Below are positions 25,536 through 54,266 of a DNA stretch of 64,000 nt, in pieces. The position numbers and the translations under genes were made by a program. Where the stretch lies: assembly GCF_016863295.1 (NCBI RefSeq), contig NZ_BOOP01000008.1:1-64000 (forward strand). Direction: 5' to 3'. Each line of letters opens with the position of its first letter. Within the stretch, counting starts at the first letter, position 1. This DNA comes from Planotetraspora phitsanulokensis (GTDB taxonomy: Bacteria > Actinomycetota > Actinomycetes > Streptosporangiales > Streptosporangiaceae). The notes beneath the pieces are model-generated. The model was not told where the DNA came from. It ran no database searches and worked only from the letters and a program-made list of their open reading frames with translations.

Positions 25536-28500
25536 ATGACGGTGGGGGCAGCCGGCGACCCGACGGCTCTACGGGCGTCGTTCGTCGATTACCTGAGGCA
25601 GCAACTGGTCGGTCCCGTAGGTGGAGATCGTGAGGTGCTCACCGACCCACCCGACCGGCGCTATCTGATGGGAACGCTCTATCCACGCGAAGCGGCCTTC
25701 CAGGATGTCGCCACTTTGGACGGCGAGTCCCCGGACGAACAGACCGACTCTGACGACGGCGGAGATGAGGGACAGGCCGCGCAGGATCCGGTGTCGGATG
25801 CCGGCGCTTGGCTGCCTTCATCCCTCGGGCTGTCGTTCTTCACCGACGCTACGGACATCAGGATCCGCTGTTGGGGCGGCACTTACAGCATGGCCAGGCT
25901 AAACGATCGGCGTCAGTGGACGCGCGACCCGCTCAGAGTGGAGGAGCACAGGCTCCCGGACGATTCCTTGTCCGTGTTCTCCGGTCGTGGCGAGGTCCGC
26001 GTTCGGCGACGTCCATACGGGCGTGGTCACCTCATCACCGTCGCCTTGGTCAACTCACATGTTTCGTCGAATAACAGTCGGGACTGGGCCCACATGTTGT
26101 TCCAGGTTGGCTTGGAGGTCCGCGCTGAGGACGGGCAGGTTCTCGAGTACCCGAGTGTTCGTCTGAGCAGCCAGGACGAGGAGGAGCAGGAGCTACGTCT
26201 CCAGTACAGGCACGCGAAGACGTACTCGATCGGGCACGGCTGCGCCACAAAGATTGTCTCGGGGGACGAGAGCGGTAGCGTCACCGCGATCGCGACTGAG
26301 GTGATGCCCGAGGAATCCGTGGCTTCAGTACGAGCTTCAGGACCACAAGATCTTGCAGTTCTGTCTCTCGCCAAGCTCTCCGACCCCGCGCTCGGGCCGA
26401 CGGAGTTGGCGGACTCGCTCAGTGACTTCGTGCGGGGTTATCGTTCCTGGTTCGAAGGCCAGGTTGCCGCGGCAGCCGGACTGGAATCCTGGGGGCGAGC
26501 TCCCGCGCAGCGGATTTTGGAACGTATCGACCGGGCGATTCGGCGCATGGAGAGGGGCATCGTTTGCCTCGTCGATGACCAGGAGTCGAAGGCCTTCGAA
26601 GCCTTCCGCTTGGCCAACCGTGCAATGGCTCTCCAGATGCGCAGATCCGAAGCCGACCTCGGTGGTGCAAGGCGCAGGCGGGGTGAAGCGGTGGCGCAGG
26701 TGGCCGAGCCGAATCTTCGCGACTACAGATGGCGTCCGTTTCAGCTCGCCTACTTCCTCATGGTCGTGGAAGGCCTGGTGAGAGAGGACCATCCTGACCG
26801 TGAGGTAGTCGATCTCATCTGGTTTCCGACCGGCGGCGGCAAAACTGAGGCGTACCTGTTCGTGGCTGCTTTCGAGATCATCCTGCGACGGCTCAGCCAT
26901 GGTGAAGCAGGTGGTGGGACCACCGTCATCAGTAGGTACACGCTGAGCCTCCTGACCACTCAGCAGTTCCAGCGGGCGGCCAGCATCATCTGCGCCTTGG
27001 AGTACCTGCGCCGCGGCTTGGATACCGCCTTCTCACCTGCGCTCGGCGAAGAACCGATCACGATAGGTCTGTGGGTCGGTGAGGCTACGACTCCGAACAA
27101 GTACTCGGGCGACTCGGGCGCCGAGGAAGCCCTCCAGCAGCTTCTCGGCATGAGCAAACCCGATGACCGTTTCCTGCTGGAACGCTGCCCATGGTGCGGA
27201 ACCGAAATTGTGCCGCGCAGCAAGTCCCAGAGGAGCGACTACGGCATCAAGGCGACATCGTCATCGTTCAGGTTCCACTGTACGAATGATGGCTGCGCGT
27301 TCTCGGAGGTACTTCCAGTCTCGGTCGTCGACGACCACCTGTACGAGTTCCCGCCAACCTTCTTGCTCGGAACCGTCGACAAGTTTGCCCGCCTTGCCTG
27401 GGAGCGCCGAGCCGGAGCGTTGTTCAGCAGTAATGGACGACGCCGACCCTCGTTGATTATCCAGGACGAGTTGCATCTGCTCTCGGGCCCGCTAGGTACC
27501 ACAGTCGGTCTCTACGAAGCTGCCATATCGGAACTTTGCGCATGGGACGGCATCCGGCCGAAGATCATTGCTTCTACCGCCACCATCCGACGGGCCGGCG
27601 ATCAGGTTCGCGGTCTGTACGGGCGGCCGGTTCAGCTCTTCCCGCCTGCCGGCCTAGACGCGAGGTATTCCTATTTCTCGGAACCTGATCCAACTCGAGC
27701 CGGACGCCTGTATCTCGGGGTCATGGCTCAGGGACACACCAACTCCACCGCCATAGTTCACACCACGGCAGCGATGGCGCAGGCCCCCGTCGAGACCTCC
27801 GACGACCCCCTGTTTCAGGATGCCTACTGGACCCTGGTCGCCTACCACCACAGCCTCCGTGAGCTGGGCCGGACCGTAACACTTGCTCGTGACGACGTCG
27901 GTGCCCGCCTGAAGTACCTGGGCGCGCTCAATGACAAGGTGCGTTCCTGGAGCGAGGAGAAGGTGGAGGAGCTTACTGCCAACTTGTCCCGTGCTGAACA
28001 ACCCCGACTTCTCGAACGCCTGGAGATTTCACATCCGGAGGAAGGGGCGGTCTCGTTCCTGGCCTCGACGAACATGTTGTCCGTGGGCATCGATGTGAGG
28101 CGGCTCTCGTTGATGCTGATGATGGGTCAGCCGAAGACCACCTCCGAATACATCCAGGCCACAAGCCGCGTCGGCCGTCACAGGGTTCCCGGGCTCGTGG
28201 TGACGATGCTCCGTCCCACCAAGCCCAGGGACCGGTCGCACTACGAGGCCTTCGGCGTATACCACCAGTCGCTGTACCGGCACGTCGAGCCGACCAGTGT
28301 CACGCCCTGGTCGCTGGCATCCAGACAACGGGCCCTCCACGGCTGCCTCGTGATCCTGTTCAGGCACGGCCTTGGCCTGTCCGCCGACGACCAGGCTGGG
28401 GAGGTCCTGCATCGCAGCGACGACCTCGAAAGGATCAAGAAGCAACTCCTTGCCCACGTGGGAACCGCAGATCCTCATGAGCTGGCGGCCACCGAGCGCG

Positions 28501-28703
28501 ACCTGAATCGGCTGATCACTGAGTGGATCGACTTGGCTCAGATCGCTGAGAGATCGAACAAAAAACTTAGATACACGTTCCAAGGCAGGGCTCAGAAGAA
28601 CTTGATCAAGCAGTTCGGAAGGGGCGACGGCCTCTGGGAAACGCTCAATTCCATGAGAAATGTGGACAACGAGGCGCTGGTCAAGGTCAGAGGAGAAGAG
28701 TGA
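25536..28703 (+). CDS. drmA: DrmA-like SF2 helicase (DISARM-type), copy 1
   Basis: A DNA helicase of 1055 residues (ATG 25536; TTG 25521 and GTG 25527 are in frame). It opens with the DrmA-like segment LRASFVDYLRQQLVGPVGG and YLMGTLYPRE. Helicase motifs: WFPTGGGKTEAYLFVAAFEI (about 430), IIQDELHLLSGPLG (DELH box, about 644), ASTATIRRA, then STNMLSVGIDVRRL and EYIQATSRVGRH (about 874). A zinc finger (CPWCG...CTNDGC) sits between the lobes. DrmA with DrmB forms the translocating core of DISARM, which blocks incoming unmethylated phage DNA. The stop overlaps the drmB start (TGATG). A paralogue is at 45055-48255. Confidence 0.8.
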   Translation: MTVGAAGDPTALRASFVDYLRQQLVGPVGGDREVLTDPPDRRYLMGTLYPREAAFQDVATLDGESPDEQTDSDDGGDEGQAAQDPVSDAGAWLPSSLGLSFFTDATDIRIRCWGGTYSMARLNDRRQWTRDPLRVEEHRLPDDSLSVFSGRGEVRVRRRPYGRGHLITVALVNSHVSSNNSRDWAHMLFQVGLEVRAEDGQVLEYPSVRLSSQDEEEQELRLQYRHAKTYSIGHGCATKIVSGDESGSVTAIATEVMPEESVASVRASGPQDLAVLSLAKLSDPALGPTELADSLSDFVRGYRSWFEGQVAAAAGLESWGRAPAQRILERIDRAIRRMERGIVCLVDDQESKAFEAFRLANRAMALQMRRSEADLGGARRRRGEAVAQVAEPNLRDYRWRPFQLAYFLMVVEGLVREDHPDREVVDLIWFPTGGGKTEAYLFVAAFEIILRRLSHGEAGGGTTVISRYTLSLLTTQQFQRAASIICALEYLRRGLDTAFSPALGEEPITIGLWVGEATTPNKYSGDSGAEEALQQLLGMSKPDDRFLLERCPWCGTEIVPRSKSQRSDYGIKATSSSFRFHCTNDGCAFSEVLPVSVVDDHLYEFPPTFLLGTVDKFARLAWERRAGALFSSNGRRRPSLIIQDELHLLSGPLGTTVGLYEAAISELCAWDGIRPKIIASTATIRRAGDQVRGLYGRPVQLFPPAGLDARYSYFSEPDPTRAGRLYLGVMAQGHTNSTAIVHTTAAMAQAPVETSDDPLFQDAYWTLVAYHHSLRELGRTVTLARDDVGARLKYLGALNDKVRSWSEEKVEELTANLSRAEQPRLLERLEISHPEEGAVSFLASTNMLSVGIDVRRLSLMLMMGQPKTTSEYIQATSRVGRHRVPGLVVTMLRPTKPRDRSHYEAFGVYHQSLYRHVEPTSVTPWSLASRQRALHGCLVILFRHGLGLSADDQAGEVLHRSDDLERIKKQLLAHVGTADPHELAATERDLNRLITEWIDLAQIAERSNKKLRYTFQGRAQKNLIKQFGRGDGLWETLNSMRNVDNEALVKVRGEE

Positions 28704-30574
28704 TGGCCCTTCGTCGACGGGTCCGGCAGTCCCAGACAATCTTCCCGTTTGGAGTTGGCGGGATCTTCGACCAGCGAGGTGAGTCGTTCACCGCTGTCGA
28801 CATCCGACACTGGCCTCAGCAAGCCAAGAAGATCCTTTTTCCGAGGCTCGCGAAGAAGCTCAACGTAGATCATTTCCGCGGGGCCCCGGTAGCACCTTCC
28901 GGCCGCGCTGATCCGCCGAGCGACTGGCCGAGGGTGCCCTACTTCCGGTTCCCCGCATGGCTCTTTTGCGATCACTGCCGCCGCATGTACCGATGGAGTC
29001 CTGAGAAGGAAGAGCAGGACCAAGCGCCGATCTGCCCGCGCTGTGCTCCGGTCTCGAAGCTGGTTCCGATGCGATTCATCCAGATCTGCTCTCGCAGTCA
29101 CATGTCGGATGTTGACTGGTCGTGGTGGGCGCATTCCACCCTGTCGGTCGATGATCGCGACCAGTGTCCTGACAATATGCGGCTCAAGTTCACCACCTCA
29201 AAGGAGACGAGCGGGCTCGATTCTCTCCGGGTGTCGTGCATCAACTGTCCAGCAAGCCGGAGTCTGCACGGAGTTGGCGGCGACGAGATCGTCAAGAAGC
29301 TGGGACTGACCTGTCGTGGTCGCCAGCCCTGGCAGCCCATCAGTGAGGCTGACGAGTGTCAGGAACAGCCCCAGATCGTTCAGCGAGGGGCTGCGAACGT
29401 CTACTTCCCCGTGATCTACGGCGCAATTGACATTCCTGCCTTGGCCGTACCTTCTGACGTGGAAGAGGGTGAGGAGTCTGTTCGGGTCAAGTCACACAAC
29501 ACTTGGACGCTCTTCCTTACTGCACCAGCCGCGACCAGGCACCTGTTCAGACAGATCATTTCCGTAGACTGTGGAGTCCCCGAGGAGTTCGTAGAGCACC
29601 TGGCTACCTTCCCGGGAGATGCAGATGAGGCCGGCTCCGAATCCGCGGTCGCCCAGAGCATCGATCTCGATTTCGACGAATGGCGAGTCTTTACCACGCC
29701 CGCCGACGAGCGACCGACGACCAAGAACTTTGTCACACGAGACACCACACTGTCCGCGGGAATTTCTCAGGCAGTCGGCTCCTTCGGCCTGAGTTCGAGA
29801 ATTACGGGCATCGTCCTCGCTGACCGGATCCGAGAAGTCCGAGCACTGACTGGCTTCTCCCGCCACTCCCCTGGTATCAACGTCATCCCGGCCCACATGA
29901 AGTCCACCCGGCCCAAATGGTTCCCGGGTGTCGAGACTTTCGGCGAAGGGATCTTCCTAGCCTTCGACGAGCAGCAACTCAGTGAGTGGGAAGCGTCATA
30001 CCAGGTGAAAAACCACGTAGAGGCGCATGAGGCGGATCTTTCCAGGTCCTTTCAGCAGGACCTACTTCGCGATCGATCAGGTACGCCCATGCTGCCGAGG
30101 TATCCCCTTCTCCATACCTTCGCCCACCTGCTGATCAGGCAGTTGTCCTTCGAGTCGGGCTACAACACCGCCTCTCTCCGAGAACGCGTCTACGCACGTG
30201 TTCCCATGGGAGTGACGGCCGCGCCAATGGGCGGAATTCTCATCTACACCGCAGCCGGAGACGCGGAGGGTACGCTGGGCGGCCTCGTCCGTCAGGGAAC
30301 ACCTTCCTTCCTGACCGAGACGCTCGTCCGTGCCCTCGAAGCCAGTGCCTGGTGCTCGAACGATCCGCTCTGTTCGGAGAACTCCGGTCAGGGACTTGGG
30401 AACCTCAACCGAGCCGCCTGCCACGCCTGCGCCCTCCTGCCAGAAACGAGCTGCGAGGCTGGCAACGCGCTGTTGGACAGGACTCTTGTCACTGGCAACG
30501 GGATCGTTCAAGGATTCTTCGAACCAGTTCTCAACGCTGCACGCGCCGATTCAGCAACGGAGGCAGGCAGTTGA
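28703..30574 (+). CDS. drmB: DrmB-like DUF1998 protein, copy 1
   Basis: A 623-residue protein from ATG 28703, overlapping the drmA stop by one base, with AGGAGAAG upstream. The N-terminus (QTIFPFGVGGIFDQRGESFT) and the zinc-ribbon sets FCDHCRR / ICPRC and CINCPASRS are as in DrmB. The C-terminal DUF1998 domain ends with LHTFAHLLIRQLSFESGYN and CHACALLPETSCE followed by LLDRTLV (about residues 470-595). DrmB is the obligate partner of DrmA. Its gene is tightly coupled downstream to a short UvrD-like gene (TTGA overlap). It has almost the same length as the second copy at 48257-50131. Confidence 0.8.
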   Translation: MALRRRVRQSQTIFPFGVGGIFDQRGESFTAVDIRHWPQQAKKILFPRLAKKLNVDHFRGAPVAPSGRADPPSDWPRVPYFRFPAWLFCDHCRRMYRWSPEKEEQDQAPICPRCAPVSKLVPMRFIQICSRSHMSDVDWSWWAHSTLSVDDRDQCPDNMRLKFTTSKETSGLDSLRVSCINCPASRSLHGVGGDEIVKKLGLTCRGRQPWQPISEADECQEQPQIVQRGAANVYFPVIYGAIDIPALAVPSDVEEGEESVRVKSHNTWTLFLTAPAATRHLFRQIISVDCGVPEEFVEHLATFPGDADEAGSESAVAQSIDLDFDEWRVFTTPADERPTTKNFVTRDTTLSAGISQAVGSFGLSSRITGIVLADRIREVRALTGFSRHSPGINVIPAHMKSTRPKWFPGVETFGEGIFLAFDEQQLSEWEASYQVKNHVEAHEADLSRSFQQDLLRDRSGTPMLPRYPLLHTFAHLLIRQLSFESGYNTASLRERVYARVPMGVTAAPMGGILIYTAAGDAEGTLGGLVRQGTPSFLTETLVRALEASAWCSNDPLCSENSGQGLGNLNRAACHACALLPETSCEAGNALLDRTLVTGNGIVQGFFEPVLNAARADSATEAGS

Positions 30575-31659
30575 GACTGCCCTCGATTCTGGACCTATCC
30601 GAGGAGCAGGAGTTCGTAACGAACCTGCCCGCCGTCGGGAGATTTCTGATCAGCGGCCCGGCTGGTTCCGGAAAGACCATCATGGCCCTCTACCGCACAT
30701 GGTCCCTGGTCATGCAAGGGCGAAGGCCTGTTCTCATGACATATTCACGCCCGCTGAAAGGTTACTGCGCACAAGCCGCACGACGCCTTGGTCTTGAATC
30801 AACGGTGATGACATTCCACGAGTGGTTTTCGAACTACTGGAAGAGGAGATTCAACCAAAATCCACCAGTCCAGGATGACAGGTACAGCTTCAACTGGAAT
30901 GCGATCCTTCTTCGACTGGGGCAGGCGGACCGCACCGAGATCGAGATCGAGGACCTCGTCGTTGACGAAGGGCAGGATCTCCCGCGTGAGTTCTATCTGG
31001 TCTCAACACTGATCGCCGAGAACGTTACGGTGTTCGCTGACGAGAACCAGCGGATCACGGACACCCAGAGCACCCTTGAAGAGATCAGATCCTTTCTCGG
31101 CCCAGGTACCCTCCACCGCGCCGTTGGTCTGAATGCGCGGAACACCGTCGAGATCGCGCGATTCGCCGGCCTGTTTGCAGATGAAGCCCTTCCTGTGCCC
31201 ACGCGGCGGGGACAGCCTCCTGAGCTGCACTGGTATTCAAGGATGAGGGAAGTCATCGATCGGATCGTCCGGTACACCAAGGAGAACCCTGGCCACGAAG
31301 TGGCGATCACCGCGCAGCACCAACAAACCATCCTCAGCCTGTGGACAGAGCTGGACAGGCAGCGGGTGTCGTCGGCGCAGATCTATGTTCGTCGCGGCAC
31401 CATCCGCAGAGATATCGACTTCGGTAAGCGGGGCACCAAGATCCTCACGGCTAGGTCCATGAAGGGACTCGAATTCGACGCGGTGTTCGTCACTGACCTT
31501 GAGACGTACTCGACGGACGCGACCGACCACGCCACGCGCATGCAGATGTACGTCCTCGCCACCCGTGCCCGCGAGCGGCTACATCTGATGTACCGCGGTT
31601 CTGCTGAGCCTCCGATCGTGGCGCAGATCCCAGACAATGTCCTTCTTCGCAGTCCATGA
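30571..31659 (+). CDS. Short UvrD/SF1-type ATPase
   Basis: A 362-residue protein. The TTG at 30571 is chosen because it overlaps the drmB stop and has GGAGG nine bases upstream. Motifs: SGPAGSGKTIMALYRTW (Walker A, about 29), VVDEGQDLPREFY (DExQ, about 130), FADENQRITD, LNARNTVEIARFAGL, and RSMKGLEFDAVFVTDLE with the C-terminal VLATRARERLHLMY. It is half the size of standard UvrD helicases because the 1B and 2B subdomains are missing, so it may be a DNA-dependent ATPase rather than a processive helicase. As the third gene of the drm operon it should work with DrmA-DrmB. Confidence 0.8.
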   Translation: MRLPSILDLSEEQEFVTNLPAVGRFLISGPAGSGKTIMALYRTWSLVMQGRRPVLMTYSRPLKGYCAQAARRLGLESTVMTFHEWFSNYWKRRFNQNPPVQDDRYSFNWNAILLRLGQADRTEIEIEDLVVDEGQDLPREFYLVSTLIAENVTVFADENQRITDTQSTLEEIRSFLGPGTLHRAVGLNARNTVEIARFAGLFADEALPVPTRRGQPPELHWYSRMREVIDRIVRYTKENPGHEVAITAQHQQTILSLWTELDRQRVSSAQIYVRRGTIRRDIDFGKRGTKILTARSMKGLEFDAVFVTDLETYSTDATDHATRMQMYVLATRARERLHLMYRGSAEPPIVAQIPDNVLLRSP

Positions 31660-31948: not shown

Positions 31949-33127
31949 CTACCGCGGAGCGGTGGCACACAGATAGCGATACAACTCGCGAGCGATCGCC
32001 TGGGCGAGGCCGGCGGGGACGGCGTTGCCGATTTGGCGGGCGATCTGGATCTTGCTGCCGACCCACTTGTAGTTGGGTGGGAAGCCTTGAAGGAGGGCGG
32101 CTTCCAGGTGGGTGATCGGGCGGTCGGCCTTGGGGTGGAGGTATCGCCCCTTCTCGGGCTTGTAGAACTCGGTGCGGATCGTCACCGAGGGGCGATCCCA
32201 CCAGAGGCGGCCCATCACGTCGCCGGAGCCGTTCCGGTGGTTGATCCAGTTCTCGGTGGACAGCTCTTCCGGCAGGGAGTGGCGGTTTCCGCCCTCAGGG
32301 ATCGCTCGGTAGCGCCTGAGCGAGAGTTCTGTTGGGTTGCGGCCGATGTGAAGGTCGGTGGTCAGGAATGTTCCTGGCAGCGTTGCTCCGAGCAGATCAC
32401 AGCTCCGTTCGGGGAGTTGGGTGGTCTCAGTCTCTGGGGGGGTCGTGCTGAAGACCACGCTGGATGGGATCCAGTCCTCGAGAGGTGTGAAGAGTGTGCC
32501 CTCGCTGCCCTTCTTGTCCGGCTTCCGATGGGTGGGGTGAGGGTGCTCAAGAGGCTTGCGTGATGGATGGGAGGCGACGAGATCCCGGTGAGTGGCCAGG
32601 ACGATTACGCGCCTGCGGGTTTGGGGGACGCCATAGTCAGCCGCGTTGAGGAGCTTCGTCTGCAAGACGTAGTCGCTTAGTTCGCCGTCAGGGCGGGTGG
32701 AGGCGGTGAGCAACTCGAACTCGCGCGACCGCAGGAACCGGTCCACGTTCTCGATGACGAATATCTTGGGCTTGAGGGTGAGGACCACACGGACGTACTC
32801 CTTCCAGAGCTTGTTCCGGGGGTCGTTCGGGTCCTCCTTGCCCAGTCCGGAGAAGCCCTGGCAGGGTGGGCCGCCGAGGATCACGTCCACGGTGGAGGCC
32901 ACGTCCTTGGGGTCCCACTTGGCAATGTCGCCGGCGTGAATGTGGTCGGTTCCACCGGCCTCCTCGGCGAAGTTCGCGGCATAGGTCGAAGCCGCCGCGA
33001 TGTCCCACTCAACCGCACCTACGGTGCGGAAGGCGCCGGGCTTGAACGTGTGGAATCCCTGGGTCAGACCCCCACACCCCGCGAAGAGGTCGACGATGTT
33101 TATGGGGTTGGTGGCGGGGGCGGTCAT
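31949..33127 (-). CDS. DNA (cytosine-5) methyltransferase, apparently active
   Basis: A 392-residue C5-MTase from ATG 33127 (AAGG eight bases upstream; a GTG nine bases earlier is in frame). All key motifs are intact: I DLFAGCGGLTQG, IV GGPPCQGFS with the catalytic Cys, VI ENVDRF, VIII QTRRRVIVL, X QIGNAVPAGLA. The target-recognition region is roughly residues 190-330. It methylates cytosine at carbon 5 in an unknown DNA site. It is the last gene of a five-gene operon, ten bases after a catalytically altered paralogue. In DISARM-like systems such an enzyme marks host DNA as self. Confidence 0.9.
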   Translation of the reverse strand: MTAPATNPINIVDLFAGCGGLTQGFHTFKPGAFRTVGAVEWDIAAASTYAANFAEEAGGTDHIHAGDIAKWDPKDVASTVDVILGGPPCQGFSGLGKEDPNDPRNKLWKEYVRVVLTLKPKIFVIENVDRFLRSREFELLTASTRPDGELSDYVLQTKLLNAADYGVPQTRRRVIVLATHRDLVASHPSRKPLEHPHPTHRKPDKKGSEGTLFTPLEDWIPSSVVFSTTPPETETTQLPERSCDLLGATLPGTFLTTDLHIGRNPTELSLRRYRAIPEGGNRHSLPEELSTENWINHRNGSGDVMGRLWWDRPSVTIRTEFYKPEKGRYLHPKADRPITHLEAALLQGFPPNYKWVGSKIQIARQIGNAVPAGLAQAIARELYRYLCATAPR

Positions 33128-33137
33128 GGGCGTCACC

Positions 33138-38025: not shown

Positions 38026-38058
38026 CGCGAGGTTTCTCCAGGTGAGACGGGGGTTCGA

Positions 38059-38093
38059 TTGACAGCCCATGCTAGCGTCAAACCAAACTTGAC
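38059..38093 (-). promoter_or_regulatory. Operator-like repeats upstream of the XRE-GHKL operon
   Basis: Between about 34 and 68 bases before the ATG are three copies of one half-site: TTGAC at 38059-38063, GTCAA at 38077-38081 and TTGAC at 38089-38093. The last two form the dyad GTCAA-N7-TTGAC and the first two form TTGAC-N13-GTCAA. This is the kind of site bound by small XRE proteins and is placed well for autoregulation by the HTH domain. Confidence 0.45.
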
Positions 38094-48000: not shown

Positions 48001-48255
48001 AAGGCGGTCGATGAGGAGGAGCTGAGTGGGGTCGAGAAGGACCTCAACGATCTCATCGCCAAATGGCTGCAGCTCGCCGACGATAATCCAGACCTGGTTT
48101 ATGAGGCCAAGCCCCGGCACAAGCCAAGCGAGCGGCGCAATCCCGACGAGGCGCTGCTGCGCAGCCACACAGACACCGATCTCACGAAGGCGACTCCCAC
48201 GCTGTGGAGCCTCCGTGACGTGGACGCCGAGTCCGACCTTTACCTGGAGCGATGA
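45055..48255 (+). CDS. drmA: DrmA-like SF2 helicase (DISARM-type), copy 2
   Basis: A 1066-residue helicase from ATG 45055, overlapping the UvrD gene by 17 bases; ACGGAA precedes the start. It shares with copy 1 the N-terminal LVKRLRLDTIGPVGGDDEIL and the motifs WFPTGGGKTEAYLGIIAFTV (about 448), IVQDELHLISGPLG (about 654), ASTATIRRAKKQV, ATNMISVGVDVDRL and EYIQSSSRVGRQH (about 881). The zinc finger CPWCG...CASEEC between the lobes is also kept. The copies are clearly paralogous but diverged along their whole length, so they were probably acquired or specialised separately. It works with the DrmB encoded one base downstream. Confidence 0.8.
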   Translation: MSRHSEHYAFRRDLVKRLRLDTIGPVGGDDEILTDSPVTTYAAGVLYPQRRDREEVQAEMGERDVDLSPETRVKDDAPDTGVSLANDQAPSSMGLTFGVDPTISSIITVTVTAAIYESVDSSGRPVKAQRAERRTTEEQELRWRRRQLEIDPVLVDANIVGQLTQTLAAGVELRVRVRKPKEGAVSITVALLNVHEVEQFGIRDAYCLFQPRINVSGAEGTKPFVERPVPVGADEDEIKTNRLLYRYAPNFAVGHGCAADWDWTPSAPRDEAMLKGAAAAVAEIWTEFVPTKEVLLTDSNPEIDDSALRMIDLARKPDEEIFSAVRGLVEGYRAWIAERAEESRLLGTTEYGQAARDQIRLCEAACDRMVSGIETLQRDPQVMAAFRYANEAMAVQRARTSWIKGQKRSEVQLELGKWRPFQIAFLLLCLDGIVDPDHLDRRRADLLWFPTGGGKTEAYLGIIAFTVFLRRLSRGAAGGGVTAIMRYTLRLLTLQQFERAATLICAMENIRSALSNELGNETISIGMWVGAAATPNKLKDAAESLKKLRDGGELHKENPVQLRFCPWCGTPMGPDEYEVDLTSSNMRIFCASEECDFHDALPVHVVDEKIYAIRPTLIIATVDKFAQITWRPEVAALFNRDREGTAPPELIVQDELHLISGPLGSLTGLYETAIDVAAEQPKVIASTATIRRAKKQVNQLFSREVAQFPPAGLDARDSWFAVETPAADKASRLYVGLLAPNTSQATLLVRSYAALLHHAAQIEGRDSVRDAYWTLVGYFGSLRILAAAELQVLDDVQDRLKLLAERHETQARRADQLTELTSRVKSSEIPKRLKDLERMLPDENVFDTVLATNMISVGVDVDRLGLMAITGQPQTTAEYIQSSSRVGRQHPGLVVTLYNANRSRDRSHYESFVPYHSALYRQVESTSVTPFSPRARDRALHAVLVGMARLIYPELRLNGAAAAVHKHMNRVEELQDLILARVKAVDEEELSGVEKDLNDLIAKWLQLADDNPDLVYEAKPRHKPSERRNPDEALLRSHTDTDLTKATPTLWSLRDVDAESDLYLER

Positions 48256-48256
48256 G

Positions 48257-50131
48257 ATGGCACTGCGTAACGGCCGAACGCGACAGGCCGGCCAGAACGG
48301 CGATGGCGACGTCACCCGAAAGCCGCTCGGCGCGGTGCGGCGCGCCCAGGCCATCACCACGTACGGTGTGGGAGCGATCCTCGCCATCGAGGATCAGTCG
48401 TACATCGTCAGCGGGCTCGACAGCTGGCGTGTGTGGCCGTCTGACATGATCTATGAGCCGCGGCTTCAGCACTGGCTTCGGGTCGCAAAGTTTCAGCTTC
48501 CTCCCGCGGATGAGCCCCCCTCCGGGGATGGGATCAGGGTTCGCCTGTTCCCGGAGATGTACTCCTGCGCCTCGTGCATGAAGCTCCAGGAGTTCCGCCG
48601 GTTCGGTTCGCCGCCAGGTAAGAGCGTCTGCGGGGCCTGCGAGAAGCCGCTAACGCCGTCACGGTTCGTCGTTGCCTGTGAGAACGGGCATCTGGACGAC
48701 TTCCCGTACTTCGAGTGGGTGCACAAGAAGAGCGACCAGACCCGCGGGGAGAGCGGGCAGACCAAGCATGAACTCACGCTGGAAAGCACCGGTCAGACAG
48801 CCTCGCTCCGCTCCGTCGTGATCAAGTGCTCGTGCGGAGTGCGACCGGCATCGCTCGAAGGAGCCTTTGGCGGCGGCGCCATGTCCGCCTTGGGGATCAA
48901 GTGCACCGGGCAGCGGCCCTGGCTCGGGCGCGATGCCAAGCAACCCGGGTGCACCGCCGCGCCGCGAACGTTGCAACGAGGCGCCTCTGCGGCCTGGTTC
49001 CCGATCAACAGATCGGCGCTGTCGATCCCTCCATGGTCGGAGACGCTGCAGCAACGGCTGAACCCGCACTACGCGATGTTCGGCGTTCTGCTGGATAACG
49101 ACCTGCCGGATACGGTCATCCTCGAGACGATCAAAAAGACCGACATCATGGATGACGGCCGGTTCACCGCGGAGGAGGTTTTGTCGGCTGTCCGTCGGCG
49201 TCGGGAGCTGGAGGCAAGTGCCCTGCCGGATTCCGACGAGACGGTCATGTTCGAATCCGCGAACGAGCTGCGTGAGGAGGAGTACAACCAGCTCTACGAC
49301 GGCACCGGAGGCGTTGGCCGCGACGAGAATTTCGAGTGCGTACAGGCGCCCGGCGACGGCAGAGCGCTGCCCTACGGCCTCAAGCGCTCCATGCTGGTGA
49401 AGCGGCTCCGCGAGGTCCGAGCCCTCCAGTCGTTCACCAGGGTCGCCATGCCGGATCCGACCGGGGGGGACACGCGGAAGGCTTCGCTGGCAAAGGGGCC
49501 GGTGGACTGGCTGCCGGCGGTCGAGGTCAGCGGCGAAGGCGTTTTCCTCGCCATCGACGAACAGCTTCTTCGGGAGTGGGAGCAGCGGCCGGGACCGATG
49601 CGACGGGCGCACCAGATCTGGGGCAACCACACCGCGATCCTGCGCGAGCGGGCTGAGCGAACGGGAAGCACGAAGCCACCCGGCGACATCACATCTCCGG
49701 TGACGCCTCGCTATGTGCTTTTGCACACGCTGGCGCACGTTCTCATCAATGAGTGGAGCCTGGACTGTGGCTATCCCGCAGCGGCGCTTCGCGAGCGGCT
49801 GTACATCTCCGACAAGATGGCCGGCGTGCTCATTTACACGGCCACAAGCGATTCGGCCGGCAGCCTGGGCGGCGTCGTGGCCCAAGGGGAGCACCGCAAG
49901 CTCCACGAGACGCTGGAATCAGCTCTCGCGCGCACCGAATGGTGCTCCCAGGACCCTCCCTGCATGGAGTCCGAGGCCAGCGGCATCGACAGCCTCAACC
50001 TGGCTGCCTGCTATGCCTGCGTGCTTCTGCCCGAGACCAGCTGCGAGACCAACAACGTCTTCCTGGACCGGGCCATGCTGATCGGTACCCCGGAGGACCA
50101 GTCGACCGGTTTCTTCTACAAGGGCATGTGA
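48257..50131 (+). CDS. drmB: DrmB-like DUF1998 protein, copy 2
   Basis: A 624-residue protein. The ATG at 48257 lies one base after the drmA2 stop. Zinc-binding pairs CASCMK / CGACEK (about residues 100-130), VACENGHLDDFPYF, CSCG and the C-terminal DUF1998 signature LLHTLAHVLINEWSLDCGYP and CYACVLLPETSCE followed by NNVFLDRAML (about 495-610) match copy 1. The start QAITTYGVGAILAIEDQSYI equals the FPFGVGGIFDQRGESF region of copy 1. Partner of DrmA2. No phospholipase-D drmC gene follows, unlike canonical DISARM; a RelE-UvrD fusion takes that place 63 bases downstream. Confidence 0.8.
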   Translation: MALRNGRTRQAGQNGDGDVTRKPLGAVRRAQAITTYGVGAILAIEDQSYIVSGLDSWRVWPSDMIYEPRLQHWLRVAKFQLPPADEPPSGDGIRVRLFPEMYSCASCMKLQEFRRFGSPPGKSVCGACEKPLTPSRFVVACENGHLDDFPYFEWVHKKSDQTRGESGQTKHELTLESTGQTASLRSVVIKCSCGVRPASLEGAFGGGAMSALGIKCTGQRPWLGRDAKQPGCTAAPRTLQRGASAAWFPINRSALSIPPWSETLQQRLNPHYAMFGVLLDNDLPDTVILETIKKTDIMDDGRFTAEEVLSAVRRRRELEASALPDSDETVMFESANELREEEYNQLYDGTGGVGRDENFECVQAPGDGRALPYGLKRSMLVKRLREVRALQSFTRVAMPDPTGGDTRKASLAKGPVDWLPAVEVSGEGVFLAIDEQLLREWEQRPGPMRRAHQIWGNHTAILRERAERTGSTKPPGDITSPVTPRYVLLHTLAHVLINEWSLDCGYPAAALRERLYISDKMAGVLIYTATSDSAGSLGGVVAQGEHRKLHETLESALARTEWCSQDPPCMESEASGIDSLNLAACYACVLLPETSCETNNVFLDRAMLIGTPEDQSTGFFYKGM

Positions 50132-50194
50132 GTAGCGTGATCTTCAGGCCCGATCACGGCAGGTCGGGCCTGACGCGGCTAGGGAGGAGACGAC

Positions 50195-52288
50195 ATGGCA
50201 CGTCTGGGCATCCACCAGGACTTCCTGCAGGATCTGATCCGCTTGGAGCGCCCAGTCCAGCAGAAGGTCGTCGACACCATTCTCAAGTTCGAACAGACCG
50301 CTCATGCCGGAGCGCACCTGGAGAAGCTCAACAACATCCGTGACGAGCGGCTGAAAAGCATCCGGATTGACCGGAAATACCGGGGCATCGTCCTGGTCCC
50401 CGACAAGGGCGATCAGCTCACCCTGCTTCGCGTCGACACTCATGATGAGGCCTATGCGTGGGCTCAGAACCGCCGGGTGTCGGTCAACGTGGCCACCGGC
50501 CACATGGAGATTCGTGACGAAGCAATCATCGACACGACGATTGAGGCACTGACGCAGGTCCCCACGGAGCGAGTGAGGCCTCTGTTCGAGCACATCTCCG
50601 ATGCCGACCTGAGCCGGCTGGGTATCGACGACCAGATCCGCAAGTTCGCGCGGATGTTGACCGATGCGGCCATGCTGGAGGCACTGGAGGGCAGACTTCC
50701 CCAGATCCAGTACGACGTGCTCTTCGGACTGGCCGCCGGGATGTCCCCCGAGGAGGTCTGGAACGACGTGGTCGGCTCTGCCGCACCGGAGAGAATCGAC
50801 CCGGAGGACCTCGCTGCCGCCACCCGGCGCATGCCTGACAAGGTGGCGCTGGTTCGGGGGCCTGACGAGCTCATGGAGCTGTTCGACAAGCCGTTCGCGC
50901 GGTGGCGCGTCTACCTGCATCCTCTGCAGCGGGAGGCGGCGTTTCGGTCCTACTCGGGTGCGGCCCAGGTGACCGGTGGTCCCGGCACGGGCAAGACCGT
51001 GGCAGCCCTGCACCGTGCCCGACACCTCGCTCGAGGGGGTGGTCGGGTGCTGCTCACCACGTTCACCGCGACGCTCACCCGATCGTTGGCAGAGTCGCTT
51101 CGGCTGCTGGAGACCGACGATGAGATCCTTTCTCGAATCGACGTGCTCACCGTGGACCAGGTCGCCCGCCGAGTGGTGGATGGGGACTCCGGGAAGTTCG
51201 CGCTGCTTCGCGACGATGAGGAGATGGAAATCTGGCGGCGGATCATCCGTCGCCGTGACCTGGACTTCGGCGAGACGTTCCTCCGCGAGGAGTGGCGGCA
51301 GGTGGTTCTTTCCCAGCAGATCACCACCTCCGACGGGTACCTTTCGGCCCATCGGATCGGGCGCGGCCGTCGACTCGGCCCCCTGCAGCGGGCGCAGATC
51401 TGGCGCGCGATCGCAGAGTTCGACCAGGAGTTGAACGACCGCAACTTCCGCACGTTCGAGACGGTCTGCGTAGAGGCGGCCCGTCTGTTGACCGAACGGG
51501 ACGGCAATGCGTACGACCACGTGATCGTGGACGAGGCGCAGGATCTGCATCCGGTCCGCTGGCGGGTGCTGCGGGCAGCGGTGGCCGAGGGGCCCGACGA
51601 CCTGTTCATCGCCAGCGACACACACCAGCGGATCTACGACAATCGGGTCAGCCTCGGTTCGGTCGGTATCCACCTGGCCGGTCGGTCCACGCGGTTGAAG
51701 ATCAACTACCGCACCACCGCGGAGATCCTCGCGTGGAGCTGCGCCATGCTGGCCGCCGACAAGATTGACGACCTTGATGGGCAGCGGGTCAGCCTGAGCG
51801 GCTGCCGCTCCGAGGTCCACGGTGCCAGACCCGAGTTGTTCGGGGGCTCGACCAAGAGTGCGGAGCTCGCTCACCTGGTGGAGACCGTGCAGTCCTGGCT
51901 GGACGCGGGAGTCCAGCCTGAGGAGATCGGTATCGCCGCACGTTCGGGCCCCCTGGCCCAGGACGCGGCAGCCGCGCTCACGCGTGCCAACATCCCTGCC
52001 AGCCACCTGACGCGCGACAAAGATGGCGCCGAGGGGCACGTGCGGGCCACCACCATGCACCGGATGAAGGGCCTAGAGTTCCGCTGCGTGGCGGTGATCG
52101 GGGTGGGAGGGAACCAGGTGCCCGCCGCAGGTTCGATCACACCAGTGGAACAGGACGCCCCGACCCACTCGAACGACCTGCAGCGGGAACGATGCCTTCT
52201 CTTCGTCGCCTGTACCCGGGCGCGGGAACGCCTGCAGGTGTCATGGCACGGTGAACCAAGCCCGTTTCTCAACCTCGCCAGTGGTTGA
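50195..52288 (+). CDS. RelE/ParE-like domain fused to a UvrD-type helicase
   Basis: A 697-residue protein from ATG 50195 (GGGAGGAGACGAC upstream). Residues 1-100 follow the RelE/ParE toxin fold: FLQDLIRLERPVQQKVVDTI, HLEKLNNIRDERLKSIRIDR, KYRGIVLVPDKGD and LRVDTHDEAYAWA. A linker leads to an SF1 helicase: VTGGPGTGKTVAALHRARHL (about 261), VIVDEAQDLHPVRWR (about 445), IASDTHQRIYDN, LKINYRTTAEILAW, TTMHRMKGLEFRCVAVIG and LLFVACTRARERL. RelE domains cleave mRNA on the ribosome; alone among the operon genes, this one could link DNA sensing to translation arrest. Whether the RelE-like part is catalytic cannot be told. Its 3' end overlaps the convergent kinase gene by 20 bases. Confidence 0.8.
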   Translation: MARLGIHQDFLQDLIRLERPVQQKVVDTILKFEQTAHAGAHLEKLNNIRDERLKSIRIDRKYRGIVLVPDKGDQLTLLRVDTHDEAYAWAQNRRVSVNVATGHMEIRDEAIIDTTIEALTQVPTERVRPLFEHISDADLSRLGIDDQIRKFARMLTDAAMLEALEGRLPQIQYDVLFGLAAGMSPEEVWNDVVGSAAPERIDPEDLAAATRRMPDKVALVRGPDELMELFDKPFARWRVYLHPLQREAAFRSYSGAAQVTGGPGTGKTVAALHRARHLARGGGRVLLTTFTATLTRSLAESLRLLETDDEILSRIDVLTVDQVARRVVDGDSGKFALLRDDEEMEIWRRIIRRRDLDFGETFLREEWRQVVLSQQITTSDGYLSAHRIGRGRRLGPLQRAQIWRAIAEFDQELNDRNFRTFETVCVEAARLLTERDGNAYDHVIVDEAQDLHPVRWRVLRAAVAEGPDDLFIASDTHQRIYDNRVSLGSVGIHLAGRSTRLKINYRTTAEILAWSCAMLAADKIDDLDGQRVSLSGCRSEVHGARPELFGGSTKSAELAHLVETVQSWLDAGVQPEEIGIAARSGPLAQDAAAALTRANIPASHLTRDKDGAEGHVRATTMHRMKGLEFRCVAVIGVGGNQVPAAGSITPVEQDAPTHSNDLQRERCLLFVACTRARERLQVSWHGEPSPFLNLASG

Positions 52289-54266
52289 CGATCGCCGCGA
52301 TCTCCTCGTTGGAGATCGCGGCAAGTCTCAGCGGGTACGGCATGCTCTTCCGGCCAGTAATGAGCAACCCCTCCCCGGGGCGCAGCGACTCGGCACCCAC
52401 CTGGTCGAGCACTCGCATGCTCTGTTCCGCCGTCGGCACCTTCAGGGCCAGCCGGGCCGTGATGTAGGCCTTGACCTGACCGGTGATCACACGTTCGTCT
52501 GAGGAGGTCGTCCGAACAATGACATGAACGCCGACCGCGCGGCCTTCCCTGGTCAGCTCCCTGATGGCCTTTTCTGCGGAGGGCAGCCGCATGGTTTCGG
52601 CCAGCTCGTCGACGACCACAAGCACGTGCGGATGGACCTGCTCGGCATCGCCCAGGGCCTCGAGCGGGACAGGCGTCCGCCCTTCGCGCACCTCCCGGTT
52701 GAAGTCGTCGGCAGTACGGCAGCGCATCGCGGACAGATCTGCATAGCGTCGTTCAACCTCGGCGACCGCCCACGTCAGCGGATCCTCCTGTTGCACTACG
52801 TGCGGCAGCTCTGTGAAGGGGTTCAGGCCGCCCCTCCGGGAGTCGAGTAGCACCAAGCGGAGGTGACGTGGGCTCTGTCGCATCAGAGCCGAGGCGATGA
52901 GAGTGCGGAGTGGATCAATGTCCTCGGCGTCACCACCGATCAATACATGCGGTGATTGCGTCAGGTCCAGGATGGCTGGATTGCCATCTCGGTCGCGCCC
53001 AATGATCAGCGCGTCTCCCGTGGGCGTTTCGCGCAGCAGATCGCCGAGGCTGATCAGGTCGGGCGTGCTGTGTGGCACCTCGACGATCACGGCAGCGACA
53101 CCCGGTAGAGGCGAACTCGAATGTTCCAGTTCGACAAGTCGAACTGCGGTGTTGTTCAGGGCAGCGGCAAAGGCGGCTGCCAATGCGAGCACCTCACCGG
53201 CGGGCGTTGTCGGTCCCAGCCTGATCTCGAACCGAGTAAGACCGGGGACGCGGGTGTATCCAGCCAGCTTGGCGTCGACGCTTGTCTTCCGTAGAACGGT
53301 CTCGATCTTCTTCGCCGCGGCGTCGTCGACGTCGGTGTGTTTCCGCTCCGGAACGCCAGACTTCAGAAGTCTTTCGGACGGAGGCTGTCGGACCGTTCTG
53401 GCGCCGGCGGACGGCTTGGGTCTGGGCGTCGAGCGAGTCCGCATGGCCTTCAACCGGGCGGCGACCTCCGCCGCCGTCTCCGGGCGGTTCTCCGGTTTCT
53501 TGGCCAGCATCTGGAGGACCAGTTCGTCCAACTCGGCCGGGACTTCGGCGCGGGTCGCGCTCGGTGCCTCCGGAGTTTTGGAGTTGTGCTGGAAGATCAG
53601 TTGCCAACCGTGGCCGAGGAAGGGGCGATCACCGGTCAGCATCTCGTACAGGACGCAGCCCAGAGAGTAGAGGTCGCTCCGCTCGTCCGGTTGGCCGTCG
53701 AACTGCTCCGGAGCCATGTAAGCGGCAGTGCCCACCTGTGCGGTCGCCTTGCTCTGGTCGGGCTCGAGGACCCTGGCAATCCCGAAGTCGCAGAGCTTCG
53801 GTCGATCGCCGGGCAGAAGCATGATGTTGGCGGGCTTGATGTCCCGGTGGATGACTCTCTTGGAATGCGCGGCGGCCAGCGCGTCCGCCAGGCGCGCTCC
53901 GATGGTTATCACGCGCTCGATCGGCAGGCCGTTCCGAGCCCTGGACATGACCTTTGCCAGGTCCTCACCGGGCAGCAACTCCATGACGAAGAACAGCTGG
54001 CCCTGGTCTTCGTCCGCGTCGTGGATCACTACAATCCCGGCGTGCTGAAGCACTCCACAGATCTGCGCCTCCGCTCGGAAACGCTCAACCCGATGCGGGT
54101 CCGGATCGAGATGATCGGGAAAGATCTTGACCGCCACCTCGCGGTTCAGCCGCAGGTCGAAGCCCTTCCAGACCTCGCCCATCGCCCCTGAGCCAAGCTT
54201 CTCGTCCAGGCGATACCGATCGGCCAACGTGACACCGTCCAGCACGGCACGCTCCGTTCCGATCAA
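52269..54266 (-). CDS. Ser/Thr protein kinase fused to an FtsK-like domain with lost Walker A
   Basis: A 665-residue protein. Residues about 18-280 are a complete Hanks-type kinase: LGSGAMGEVWKG (Gly loop), AVKIF (Lys), VIHRDIKPANIML (catalytic loop), CDFGIARV (DFG) and GTAAYMAPEQF. A basic Pro/Arg linker follows. Residues about 330-660 match FtsK/SpoIIIE: Walker B HVLVVVDELAETM (about 550), then AVGVHVIVRTTSSDERVITG and RVLDQVGAESLRPGEGLLI. The Walker A position reads HVLIGGDAEDIDPL instead of GxxGxGKS, so the Lys is absent and ATP hydrolysis is unlikely. No membrane segments were seen. It may be a sensor that phosphorylates defence proteins. Start ATG at about 54266; monocistronic. Confidence 0.85.
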   Translation of the reverse strand: MIGTERAVLDGVTLADRYRLDEKLGSGAMGEVWKGFDLRLNREVAVKIFPDHLDPDPHRVERFRAEAQICGVLQHAGIVVIHDADEDQGQLFFVMELLPGEDLAKVMSRARNGLPIERVITIGARLADALAAAHSKRVIHRDIKPANIMLLPGDRPKLCDFGIARVLEPDQSKATAQVGTAAYMAPEQFDGQPDERSDLYSLGCVLYEMLTGDRPFLGHGWQLIFQHNSKTPEAPSATRAEVPAELDELVLQMLAKKPENRPETAAEVAARLKAMRTRSTPRPKPSAGARTVRQPPSERLLKSGVPERKHTDVDDAAAKKIETVLRKTSVDAKLAGYTRVPGLTRFEIRLGPTTPAGEVLALAAAFAAALNNTAVRLVELEHSSSPLPGVAAVIVEVPHSTPDLISLGDLLRETPTGDALIIGRDRDGNPAILDLTQSPHVLIGGDAEDIDPLRTLIASALMRQSPRHLRLVLLDSRRGGLNPFTELPHVVQQEDPLTWAVAEVERRYADLSAMRCRTADDFNREVREGRTPVPLEALGDAEQVHPHVLVVVDELAETMRLPSAEKAIRELTREGRAVGVHVIVRTTSSDERVITGQVKAYITARLALKVPTAEQSMRVLDQVGAESLRPGEGLLITGRKSMPYPLRLAAISNEEIAAIVNHWRG

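Follow-up and report, generated by a model that had tools for sequence, protein, structure and literature searches.

Two drmC-less DISARM-like operons in one island of Planotetraspora phitsanulokensis, probably independent defence systems

The 64,000-nt stretch analysed here (the window: positions 1–64,000, forward strand, of contig NZ_BOOP01000008.1, assembly GCF_016863295.1 of the soil actinobacterium Planotetraspora phitsanulokensis) contains two DrmA-DrmB pairs. Do they, with the genes between and around them, form a single composite system or two? DISARM class 1 and class 2 combine DrmA-DrmB-DrmC with DrmMI/DrmD or DrmMII/DrmE, respectively. In the following, the operons of pair 1 and pair 2 are referred to as system A and system B, and their DrmAB cores as core 1 and core 2.

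Both pairs lie where a first-pass annotation had placed them, match the PADLOC DrmA and DrmB profiles and have whole frames; adjacent genes within each operon share a few bases or directly adjoin (Table 1). The short UvrD, the RelE-UvrD fusion and the two GHKL proteins (M33A and GHKL-SF2) that this annotation listed are also present, the RelE part and the M33A GHKL motifs being recognized by eye. Its inventory had to be amended in several places. The sigma-70-type gene goes with pair 1, the Vsr gene had been missed, MT2 lacks the catalytic cysteine, and M33A probably starts at the ATG at 38025 rather than at 38163, to which the open frame continues. The flanks additionally hold a DrmD/DpdE-type SNF2 helicase and a Mza set, with all five profiles (MzaA–E) matched in the island (E 2.4e-19 to 9.2e-174). 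The MzaA match lies 32 kb from MzaB and is confined to the sigma part of the sigma-70-type gene (profile positions 428–658 of 683).

Table 1. Features of the island, in window coordinates.
Feature	Position	Strand	System	Evidence
DrmD/DpdE-type SNF2 helicase	6749–9025	opposite to drmA1		DrmD profile 3.2e-91; DpdE 4.3e-89
sig, sigma-70-type factor (regions 2, 3, 4), long C-terminal part, MzaA-like	21901–25536	-	A	Pfam Sigma70_r2/r3/r4; PADLOC MzaA 4.9e-39
drmA1, YprA-type SF2 helicase half	25536–28703	+	A	PADLOC DrmA 4.6e-202; tree
drmB1 (DUF1998/MZB)	28700–30574	+	A	PADLOC DrmB 1.6e-74; Pfam MZB
uvrD1, short SF1 helicase, 362 aa	30571–31659	+	A	Pfam UvrD_C_2, AAA_19
MT1, active-type m5C methyltransferase	31949–33136	-	B	Pfam DNA_methylase 8.5e-61; PCQ motif
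MT2, m5C methyltransferase paralogue without catalytic cysteine	33138–34115	-	B	Pfam DNA_methylase 6.7e-46
M33C (DUF6339)	34179–35006	-	B	Pfam DUF6339; PADLOC PDC-M33C 1.1e-4
M33B, no family; predicted Ig-like sandwich + helical half	35003–35935	-	B	structure model
M33A, HTH + GHKL-type ATPase	35932–38025	-	B	Pfam HTH_3; PADLOC PDC-M33A 8.1e-24; motif columns
Operator-like element TTGAC-N13-GTCAA-N7-TTGA	38059–38092	.	B	intergenic pattern counts
ghklSF2, GHKL (Tiamat/sacsin-like) fused to SF2 helicase (GHKL-SF2), 1574 aa	38434–43158	+	B	PADLOC, Pfam
uvrD2, UvrD-family SF1 helicase	43155–45071	+	B	Pfam UvrD-helicase 7.5e-27
drmA2	45055–48255	+	B	PADLOC DrmA 2.3e-248; solved DrmA 7s9v 7.6e-172
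drmB2 (DUF1998/MZB)	48257–50131	+	B	PADLOC DrmB 1.6e-68; Pfam MZB
RelE-like domain (by eye) fused to UvrD helicase, ArmD-like	50195–52288	+	B accessory	Pfam UvrD-helicase, UvrD_C
Ser/Thr kinase fused to FtsK/SpoIIIE-type domain	52269–54266	-	B accessory	Pfam Pkinase 2.2e-51, FtsK_SpoIIIE
Vsr-type endonuclease	about 54577–55122	+	member of B or of MT3	tblastn 69% to L033 Vsr; PADLOC Vsr 4.4e-17
MT3, m5C methyltransferase with C-terminal extension	55395–57389	+	A/Mza	Pfam DNA_methylase; f17 neighbourhood
MzaB, GHKL ATPase	57396–58694	-	A/Mza	PADLOC MzaB 7.1e-59; Pfam HATPase_c_3
HNH nuclease	58952–60070	-		Pfam HNH_2
MT4, m5C methyltransferase	60275–62164	-	A/Mza	Pfam DNA_methylase
MzaE/AIPR	62309–64000 (extends to 64111, past window)	-	A/Mza	PADLOC MzaE 7e-80
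MzaD	64033–65025 on contig, past window			PADLOC MzaD 2.4e-19
MzaC/Z1	65022–68375 on contig, past window			PADLOC MzaC 9.2e-174

The two DrmAB cores and their partners

Conservation of system B was examined in 79 named actinobacterial loci anchored on ghklSF2, with at most 10 kb fetched on each side. Of these, 75 have the whole GHKL-SF2/UvrD/DrmA/DrmB array in an unchanging order, and its members are neighbours within 300 bp (ghklSF2-uvrD2, 77/77; uvrD2-drmA2, 76/76; drmA2-drmB2, 76/76). Pair 2 is a member of a conserved actinobacterial operon. Residues 25–444 of GHKL-SF2 match PADLOC TmtA (1.3e-42), and Pfam assigns ResIII and Helicase_C to the protein, with SACS below its cut-off. The accessory genes are less regular: RelE-UvrD and the kinase-FtsK/SpoIIIE fusion are each matched in 8/79 loci and Vsr in 57/79. 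The core of system B contains no confirmed nuclease, and Vsr may belong to the methyltransferases rather than to this core. The proposal that RelE-UvrD generally replaces drmC in pair 2 does not hold at such a frequency, and the fusion has already been described as ArmD of ARMADA II (PMC12458937).

The core 1 operon consists of DrmA, DrmB and a short UvrD. A sigma-70-type gene is found near it in 23 of the 26 fetched DrmA1-clade loci, at 92–2236 bp from the drmA1 core. Mza genes sometimes accompany this operon; in f17 loci, MT3 and mzaE are contiguous with the DrmA1 core and sig, and system B is absent (5/5). Pair 1 is a drmC-less DISARM relative with its own operon type, distinct from pair 2.

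The methyltransferase pair, the M33 module and its upstream element

M33A is encoded in 68 of the 79 ghklSF2 loci, usually together with M33B, M33C, an MT1-type methyltransferase and a cysteine-less paralogue, and often with Vsr. In 67 of these 68, it and ghklSF2 point away from each other on either side of a single intergenic region, and the M33C-B and M33B-A distances are each within 300 bp in 66/66 loci. The PCQ motif of MT1 is retained in 39/39 aligned rows. The missing cysteine of MT2 is observed directly, in 68/69 rows; the sole row with a cysteine is a 26%-identical gene from a canonical DISARM locus (L128). The dead MT2 is present in 63/68 loci having M33A versus 0/11 lacking it. These 11 loci carry ghklSF2 without M33A and MT2, and M33 is therefore not essential to the core.

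Pfam matches of M33A are restricted to HTH families; its GHKL motif columns are near-invariant in 67 rows of relatives. The PDC-M33A profile match covers residues 159–301 only, and that of PDC-M33C is likewise partial. M33B had no match in PADLOC or Pfam profile searches, and its predicted fold comes from comparison of a structure model (pLDDT 81, pTM 0.47).

The element upstream of M33A comprises three conserved half-sites. Its conservation was counted directly: the pattern occurs in 42 of 76 M33A/GHKL-SF2 intergenic regions, and is lacking in 34, versus one match across 1.71 Mb of sequence from these loci. The element also precedes M33A in L219, where M33 accompanies Mza-type genes; no copy turned up close to the M33A genes of L048 and L049, searched with a stricter pattern, or of L220–L222.

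M33 also occurs with core 1 (L048, L049), with Mza-like genes (L219, L220) and, where DrmAB is missing, alongside MT1 and Vsr (L221, L222). In four of 14 M33A-bearing genomes, the 20 kb examined contain no DrmAB core; MT2 is absent as well from two of the four. It is conceivable, as a tentative proposal, that MT1-MT2-M33CBA is a portable 'self-recognition hub' of at least three effector sets (GHKL-SF2/UvrD/DrmAB-2; sigma/DrmAB-1/UvrD; Mza-type Z1/DUF4420/GHKL), maybe serving two DrmAB effectors here. Such a hub would combine a working cytosine methyltransferase, its conserved but catalytically dead twin and an HTH-GHKL sensor whose gene is preceded by the conserved element; in its logic, the dead twin can be likened to a bacterial counterpart of DNMT3L. 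Literature searches found no description of the active and dead methyltransferase pairing with M33A, of the M33 module accompanying several effector sets, or of the three-half-site element.

One system or two

In a tree of 88 DrmA sequences, the DrmA2 clade comprises 42 rows (fork support 99), 41 of which have ghklSF2 and uvrD2, and all 23 rows with sig and uvrD1 sit in the other main clade. The two types occur together in 2 of 341 family genomes, with about 1.3 expected by chance, and in the second of these the pairs are on different contigs. No drmA1 or sig match was obtained in the fetched stretches of the 79 ghklSF2-anchored loci. A same-genus genome shares positions 31958–54363, the 22.4-kb MT1-to-kinase unit, at 82–88% identity, and the 80 kb retrieved around the unit there yielded no match to drmA1, sig or Mza; system B therefore seems to lie inside the system A/Mza cluster. 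This nesting is deduced from content and boundaries rather than from an empty site, because no close relative with the same system A and Mza gene order was found (DrmA1 identity at most 58–60%). The GC content is 0.606 for the sig-to-uvrD1 block and 0.647–0.658 for the MT1-to-kinase blocks. On these direct observations of gene content, order, clades and unit boundaries, the island probably houses two independent DISARM-like defence systems, with system B (31949–54266, perhaps plus Vsr) inside the system A/Mza cluster.

The first-pass annotation had instead joined the pairs, a view that it would have taken as refuted if they never co-occurred in other genomes, and their co-occurrence is close to nil; its description of a DISARM-like, drmC-less, multi-gene locus, for which literature searches gave no existing system name, stands, but the single composite is not supported. 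A super-system in which both DrmAB pairs, the M33/methyltransferase module and Mza make up one or two joint complexes would fit the physical adjacency of the genes, the position of M33 between two cores either of which it can accompany elsewhere, and the finding of RelE-UvrD, Vsr and m5C methyltransferases with both core types; it is very improbable given the separate clades and partners, the chance-level co-occurrence and the same-genus stretch with B but not A. We give hardly any credence to an ordinary DISARM whose drmC was lost or lies elsewhere, with the UvrD genes as passers-by. DrmA and DrmB are bona fide, the m5C methyltransferases match DrmMII profiles (although MT1, MT3 and MT4 score better against a general MTase_II or DruM profile), and the SNF2 helicase 16.5 kb left of drmA1 matches DrmD, with DpdE nearly equal and BrxHI/BrxHII (4.9e-15) ranked after both. 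However, eight DrmC queries matched nothing in the window, in 40 core-2 loci or in 22 core-1 loci, while the same queries found a DrmC-type match beside drmB in 14/14 canonical-type DrmA clade loci, which bears out the reported absence of drmC; UvrD2, moreover, is immediately upstream of drmA2 in all 76 loci where both genes were found. The only PLD-domain match above cut-off on the contig lies near 160 kb, and neither DrmD nor DrmE is among the matches listed for genes from 21.9 to 57.4 kb. Somewhat more weight, though still on the unlikely side, is given to the DrmAB-helicase operon and the M33/MT1/MT2/Vsr cassette being two neighbouring systems, with M33 as an independent R-M-like system (PADLOC PDC-M33). 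The loci with M33 outside a DrmAB context and the ghklSF2 loci lacking M33A agree with such a separation, but M33A is present in most ghklSF2 loci, nearly always divergent across an intergenic region that often holds the conserved element.

Proposed mechanism and relation to known systems

For two independent systems, the likely function is methylation-aware anti-phage DNA processing. MT1 would methylate host DNA. MT2 may still bind DNA, and probably SAM, but add no methyl groups; it would either assist MT1 or detect sites that carry no modification. M33A, together with M33B and M33C, could form an ATP-driven sensor-regulator; by binding the element in front of its own gene, it would control the divergent operons. 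Upon infection, GHKL-SF2, UvrD2 and DrmA2-DrmB2 would engage and unwind unmodified or ssDNA-containing phage DNA, and a nuclease, the stand-alone Vsr or sometimes RelE-UvrD, would take the role of DrmC and complete the attack. DrmA1-DrmB1-UvrD1 of system A may do similar work, with a dedicated sigma factor as its switch, and possibly acts together with Mza.

The DISARM/YprA family thereby gains two well-defined drmC-less branches, one recurrent in Actinomycetota, suggesting that DrmC is not the only partner with which DrmAB can function. The active/dead m5C pair with an HTH-GHKL protein makes it possible to study directly the self/non-self discrimination of DISARM-like systems, and also how such large arrays are switched on. 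The island also clearly illustrates an entire, sharply bounded defence unit that apparently lies within another.

Both pairs resemble DISARM in the split into a YprA-type DrmA and a DUF1998 DrmB encoded by separate genes, with DNA methyltransferases nearby. They differ in lacking DrmC and in having their own DrmA clades, with UvrD and GHKL-SF2 in system B and a sigma factor and short UvrD in system A. ARMADA type II (ArmABCD) has OB-CON-DUF1998 and Vsr fused to its YprA-type helicase, a BrxHII-like helicase and a PglX-like methylase (PMC12458937). The YprA-type helicase, further helicases, methyltransferase, RelE-UvrD and Vsr-type nuclease are shared features; here, however, DrmA2 and DrmB2 are separate genes, Vsr stands alone, the methylases are of m5C type and GHKL proteins are added. 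No PglX-like methylase is among the matches listed for the window genes scanned, a subset of the open frames.

Mza and the MORC/paraMORC R-M operons also combine GHKL ATPases with SF2 helicases, m5C methyltransferases, Vsr, RE-fold and AIPR proteins, and the portion of Iyer 2008 consulted (PMC2292703) does not mention DrmAB, a dead methyltransferase or a sigma factor in these operons. Unlike Mza, system B has no AIPR, Z1 or DUF4420 of its own in the 22.4-kb unit. M33A and M33C resemble the PADLOC candidate PDC-M33, although both matches are partial and M33B matches none of its profiles. CapK is an HTH-STAS-GHKL protein with a CapS partner, whereas M33A is HTH only in Pfam and its kinase role putative; what the two share is an HTH-GHKL protein whose gene lies next to an immune operon's promoter (PMC13373217).

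Gene content and the two DrmA lineages

The window opens a contig from a genome of 9.17 Mb, which belongs to the same genus as G566. Profile searches recovered both DrmA-DrmB pairs where the first-pass annotation had placed them. Pair 1 (drmA1-drmB1) forms core 1 with a short UvrD gene, uvrD1, and is preceded on the opposite strand by a sigma-70-type gene, sig, which also matches MzaA; this set is termed system A. Pair 2 (drmA2-drmB2) stands behind genes for a 1574-aa GHKL-SF2 fusion (ghklSF2) and a UvrD (uvrD2), the four forming core 2, and is followed by genes for a RelE-UvrD protein (relUvrD), a kinase-FtsK fusion (kinFts) and then Vsr. Located between the pairs are two m5C methyltransferase homologues (MT1 and MT2) and the genes M33C (DUF6339), M33B (no family) and M33A (HTH-GHKL), which together with core 2 constitute system B. 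The Vsr gene after pair 2 had been overlooked at first pass. The right side of the island carries MT3, MzaB, HNH, MT4, MzaE, MzaD and MzaC, with MzaD and MzaC beyond the window.

Positions of selected window features
Feature	Position	Placement or match
Second sigma-type protein in the island	2788-3774	Sigma70_r4_2, weak match
ISL3 transposase	5762-6466	
SNF2 helicase	6749-9025	strand opposite to drmA1, 16.5 kb left of drmA1; DrmD (3.2e-91) and DpdE (4.3e-89) profiles
1507-aa SF1 helicase with C-terminal MTES_1575 REase domain	9889-14412	PADLOC PDC-S37, Hhe-like
Schlafen-g3-type helicase	15861-17729	
sig (MzaA-like)	21901-25536	short repeat, several copies in the C-terminal ~700 residues (by eye)
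Short UvrD (uvrD1)	30571-31659	3' of pair 1
Conserved element	38059-38092	upstream of likely M33A start, 38025
UvrD (uvrD2)	43155-45071	5' of pair 2
kinFts	52269-54266	by eye, Walker A motif of the FtsK-like part seems not to be of the normal form or is missing
MzaB, MzaE, MzaD and MzaC homologues, HNH, fourth m5C methyltransferase (MT4)	57396-64000, and 2310-8376 of the fetched locus L072	32 kb from sig

In most other loci sig is matched over its sigma part alone (residues ~160-520), and the kinase gene matches as two pieces in L083, L084 and L085. L072 also carries a dynamin-like LeoA/LeoBC homologue (15203-16819; contig 75.2-76.8 kb); another GTPase-like frame, seen by eye, lies at contig 76.8-78.5 kb. 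A RepSA-type replication initiator, an FtsK-type protein and an integrase (L073 5737-11188; contig ~85-91 kb) and a tRNA-Arg (L073 17622-17695; contig ~97.5 kb) lie beside the island and are probably an actinomycete integrative element.

Searches for DrmA homologues covered 394 class genomes and 341 family genomes, and the window proteins were mapped onto the fetched neighbourhoods, each spanning at most 20 kb. A maximum-likelihood tree was built from 88 DrmA proteins, two from the window and 86 from other loci; the tree search was short, and SH-aLRT was the sole measure of support. The DrmA2 clade comprises 42 rows, with ghklSF2 and uvrD2 in 41; the exception, L045, has drmA2, drmB2 and uvrD2 matches and no ghklSF2 within the stretch examined. 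DrmA1 belongs to another main clade, which takes in every one of the 23 rows that have both sig and uvrD1, a locus cut by a contig end (L136), and three rows in which a ghklSF2 homologue is present but neither a uvrD2 match nor sig. This clade has 27 rows, and sig is matched in 23 of its 26 fetched loci, 92-2236 bp from the core. The genome counts are lower bounds, since scoring was confined to the two best first-look candidates of each genome: among the 341 family genomes, tallied by hand, at least 35 have a DrmA2-type gene (≥52% identity) and at least 13 a DrmA1-type gene (≥54% identity). Both types occur in at least two (G000 and G595), with about 1.3 expected by chance, and in G595 they are on different contigs.

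A third arrangement, with a GHKL-SF2 homologue 5' of a DrmA1-like DrmAB and no uvrD2 match, is present in L062, L137 and L138. By eye, L062, one of the three DrmA1-clade loci without sig, has a NERD-UvrD type protein between ghklSF2 and drmA; a protein of this type directly precedes drmA in L054, L063, L064 and L066.

System B as an ordered unit and its place in the island

System B is a recurrent, ordered gene set. A scan with a GHKL-SF2 alignment gave at least 79 named loci, the basis of all 79-locus counts; judged by genus names, the organisms are actinobacterial, mostly Streptomyces, and also Actinomadura, Herbidospora, Rhodococcus, Amycolatopsis and others. Among these listed loci, core genes are matched in 79 (ghklSF2), 77 (uvrD2), 77 (drmA2) and 76 (drmB2), and M33A, M33B and M33C in 68, 66 and 67. 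MT2 is matched in 63, Vsr in 57, MT1 in 33, MzaC in 12 (at 27-34% identity), relUvrD and kinFts in 8 each, MzaB in 2, and drmA1, sig, uvrD1, MzaD and MzaE in none. Of the 79, 75 have all four core genes. The joins within the core are all below 300 bp (77/77, 76/76 and 76/76), as are the M33C-M33B and M33B-M33A gaps (66/66 each), and 67 of the 68 M33A genes are transcribed divergently from ghklSF2. The incomplete cores are those of L152 and L177, which end at a contig edge, L190, with no uvrD2 within the 2.5 kb examined after ghklSF2, and L205, with drmA2 and drmB2 on the other strand and no uvrD2.

DNA of a same-genus genome, which has the unit from MT1 to the kinase gene and no pair 1 in the stretch compared, aligns with window positions 31958-54363 at 82-88% identity. 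Beyond these limits there are a weak Vsr stretch (54604-54860) and two short weak matches between drmA1 and the drmA2 of that genome, with no further alignment over the 80 kb compared, in which sig, drmA1 and the Mza genes were not found. The GC content is 0.606 from sig to uvrD1, 0.647-0.658 in the blocks that run from MT1 as far as the kinase gene, 0.615 in Vsr and 0.628 in the MzaE-D-C genes. In the f17 genomes, five of five loci (L050-L053, L055) have relUvrD, drmA1, drmB1, uvrD1, sig, mzaE and MT3 as one contiguous set in which system B is missing, and the extended loci of three of these genomes (L103-L105) also carry Vsr, MT4 and MzaB. Because the unit has sharp edges and the f17 set is contiguous without it, system B of the window seems to be lodged within system A and the Mza genes; we infer this nesting, as the f17 gene order differs from that of the window and no empty-site relative was found. 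The relUvrD gene of a close relative, G517 (L079 15223-16719), is interrupted by ~1.5 kb of other DNA.

The first-pass reading of both pairs as a single composite system is rejected by the DrmA tree, the census and the same-genus unit, and was mostly wrong: the pairs belong to separate clades and co-occur at chance level (at least 2 of 341). Two independent DISARM-like systems in one island, with system B inside system A/Mza, is the reading we favour as rather probable. That the locus is instead an ordinary DISARM becomes somewhat likelier, and the favoured reading less so, because the left flank holds the DrmD-type SNF2 match; we nevertheless judge it very improbable, given the distribution of DrmC. 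A DrmC-type match was obtained in 14 of 14 loci of the canonical-type DrmA clade, the positive control, whereas the same queries gave no match in the window or in any of the 40 core-2 and 22 core-1 loci searched. All eight proteins sent to PADLOC from beside drmB in the canonical-type clade matched DrmC. A nearby drmC is rejected by these controlled searches, and no DrmC match was found either in five divergent DrmA loci that belong to neither clade (L063-L067). The initial observation of two pairs without drmC is upheld and extended.

M33B or the central part of GHKL-SF2 may hide a nuclease, but predicted-structure comparisons lend this no support and gave no enzyme clue for either region. 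The M33B model adopts an Ig-like arrangement of a widespread kind, for which glycosidase Ig domains share the top score (best Z 8.5; 107 aligned at rmsd 2.9). The GHKL-SF2 middle (residues 440-1170) yielded a confident model (pLDDT 89.6, pTM 0.67), with TRAP1/Hsp90 as the best Foldseek match (E 0.6) and a best Z of 4.3.

On the drmB side of ten canonical DISARM-type loci (L119-L128), a Ser/Thr kinase is matched in seven and RelE-UvrD in four (L119, L120, L123 and L127). Since canonical loci often carry them, the two accessory genes are shared among DISARM-like systems.

The M33 module, its methyltransferases and its upstream element

M33 is a portable module. M33A is present in at least 14 of the 394 class genomes, beside core 2 in eight, beside core 1 in two and with neither in four; two of these last four loci contain homologues of MzaB, MzaD and MzaC, and the other two contain MT1 and Vsr and no other window genes. 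M33A is missing from 11 of the 79 listed ghklSF2 loci. Its GHKL motif columns and HTH are near-invariant in 67 rows. A phage origin of M33A was rejected, with no match among 50,697 phage records.

In m5C methyltransferases, the cysteine of motif IV (PCQ) is catalytic. MT2 and its relatives possess a full m5C methyltransferase domain from which this cysteine is absent in 68 of 69 rows, with arginine in 61; the sole exception is a 26%-identical gene in a canonical DISARM locus (L128). PCQ is kept in all 39 MT1-type rows. Across the 79 listed loci, 63 of the 68 with M33A combine MT2 lacking PCQ with an active-type methyltransferase, the two being adjacent (≤600 bp) in 58, and MT2 occurs in none of the 11 without M33A. 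The active/dead pairing tracks M33A, not the DrmAB core. The distant M33 loci L221 and L222 (M33A 30-37% identical) have M33 without MT2.

The M33A/GHKL-SF2 intergenic region contains a conserved element, TTGAC-N10-15-GTCAA-N4-8-TTGA, in 42 of the 76 regions left after identical ones were merged (from 85; 61 kb in all), with one match in the other 1.71 Mb of these loci. Its two-site form occurs in 57 of the 76, versus six background matches. The pattern was spotted by eye in 12 aligned regions (the window and 11 others) and then counted on all, so the counts in those 12 are not independent. Among M33A loci that are not beside core 2, L219 has the element upstream of M33A; it was not found there in L220-L222, nor near M33A in L048 and L049 with a stricter pattern. 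A -35/-10 promoter reading of the region is not claimed, the spacing fitting poorly.

Likely function and relation to known systems

By analogy with DISARM, ARMADA II (validated against phage in PMC12458937) and GHKL-helicase-methyltransferase-Vsr operons (PMC2292703), the most likely role of system B is defence by methylation-aware processing of DNA. The helicase-GHKL core would act on phage DNA that is unmodified or replicating, while sensing and regulation would fall to M33. M33A resembles CapK, an HTH-GHKL protein beside an immune promoter (PMC13373217).

The literature searched, with most subscription journals and all supplements beyond reach, contained no description of the gene set and no mention of DUF6339. 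Systems A and B are new as variants of the split-YprA (DISARM) kind, although an unseen description is possible, and their gene sets are worth naming. A Tsukamurella plasmid (L218) carries UvrD-DrmA-DrmB, its DrmA being 45% identical to DrmA2; next come a DEAD helicase gene and a large gene whose annotation is restriction subunit M. This locus may combine the core of system B with class-1-like parts.
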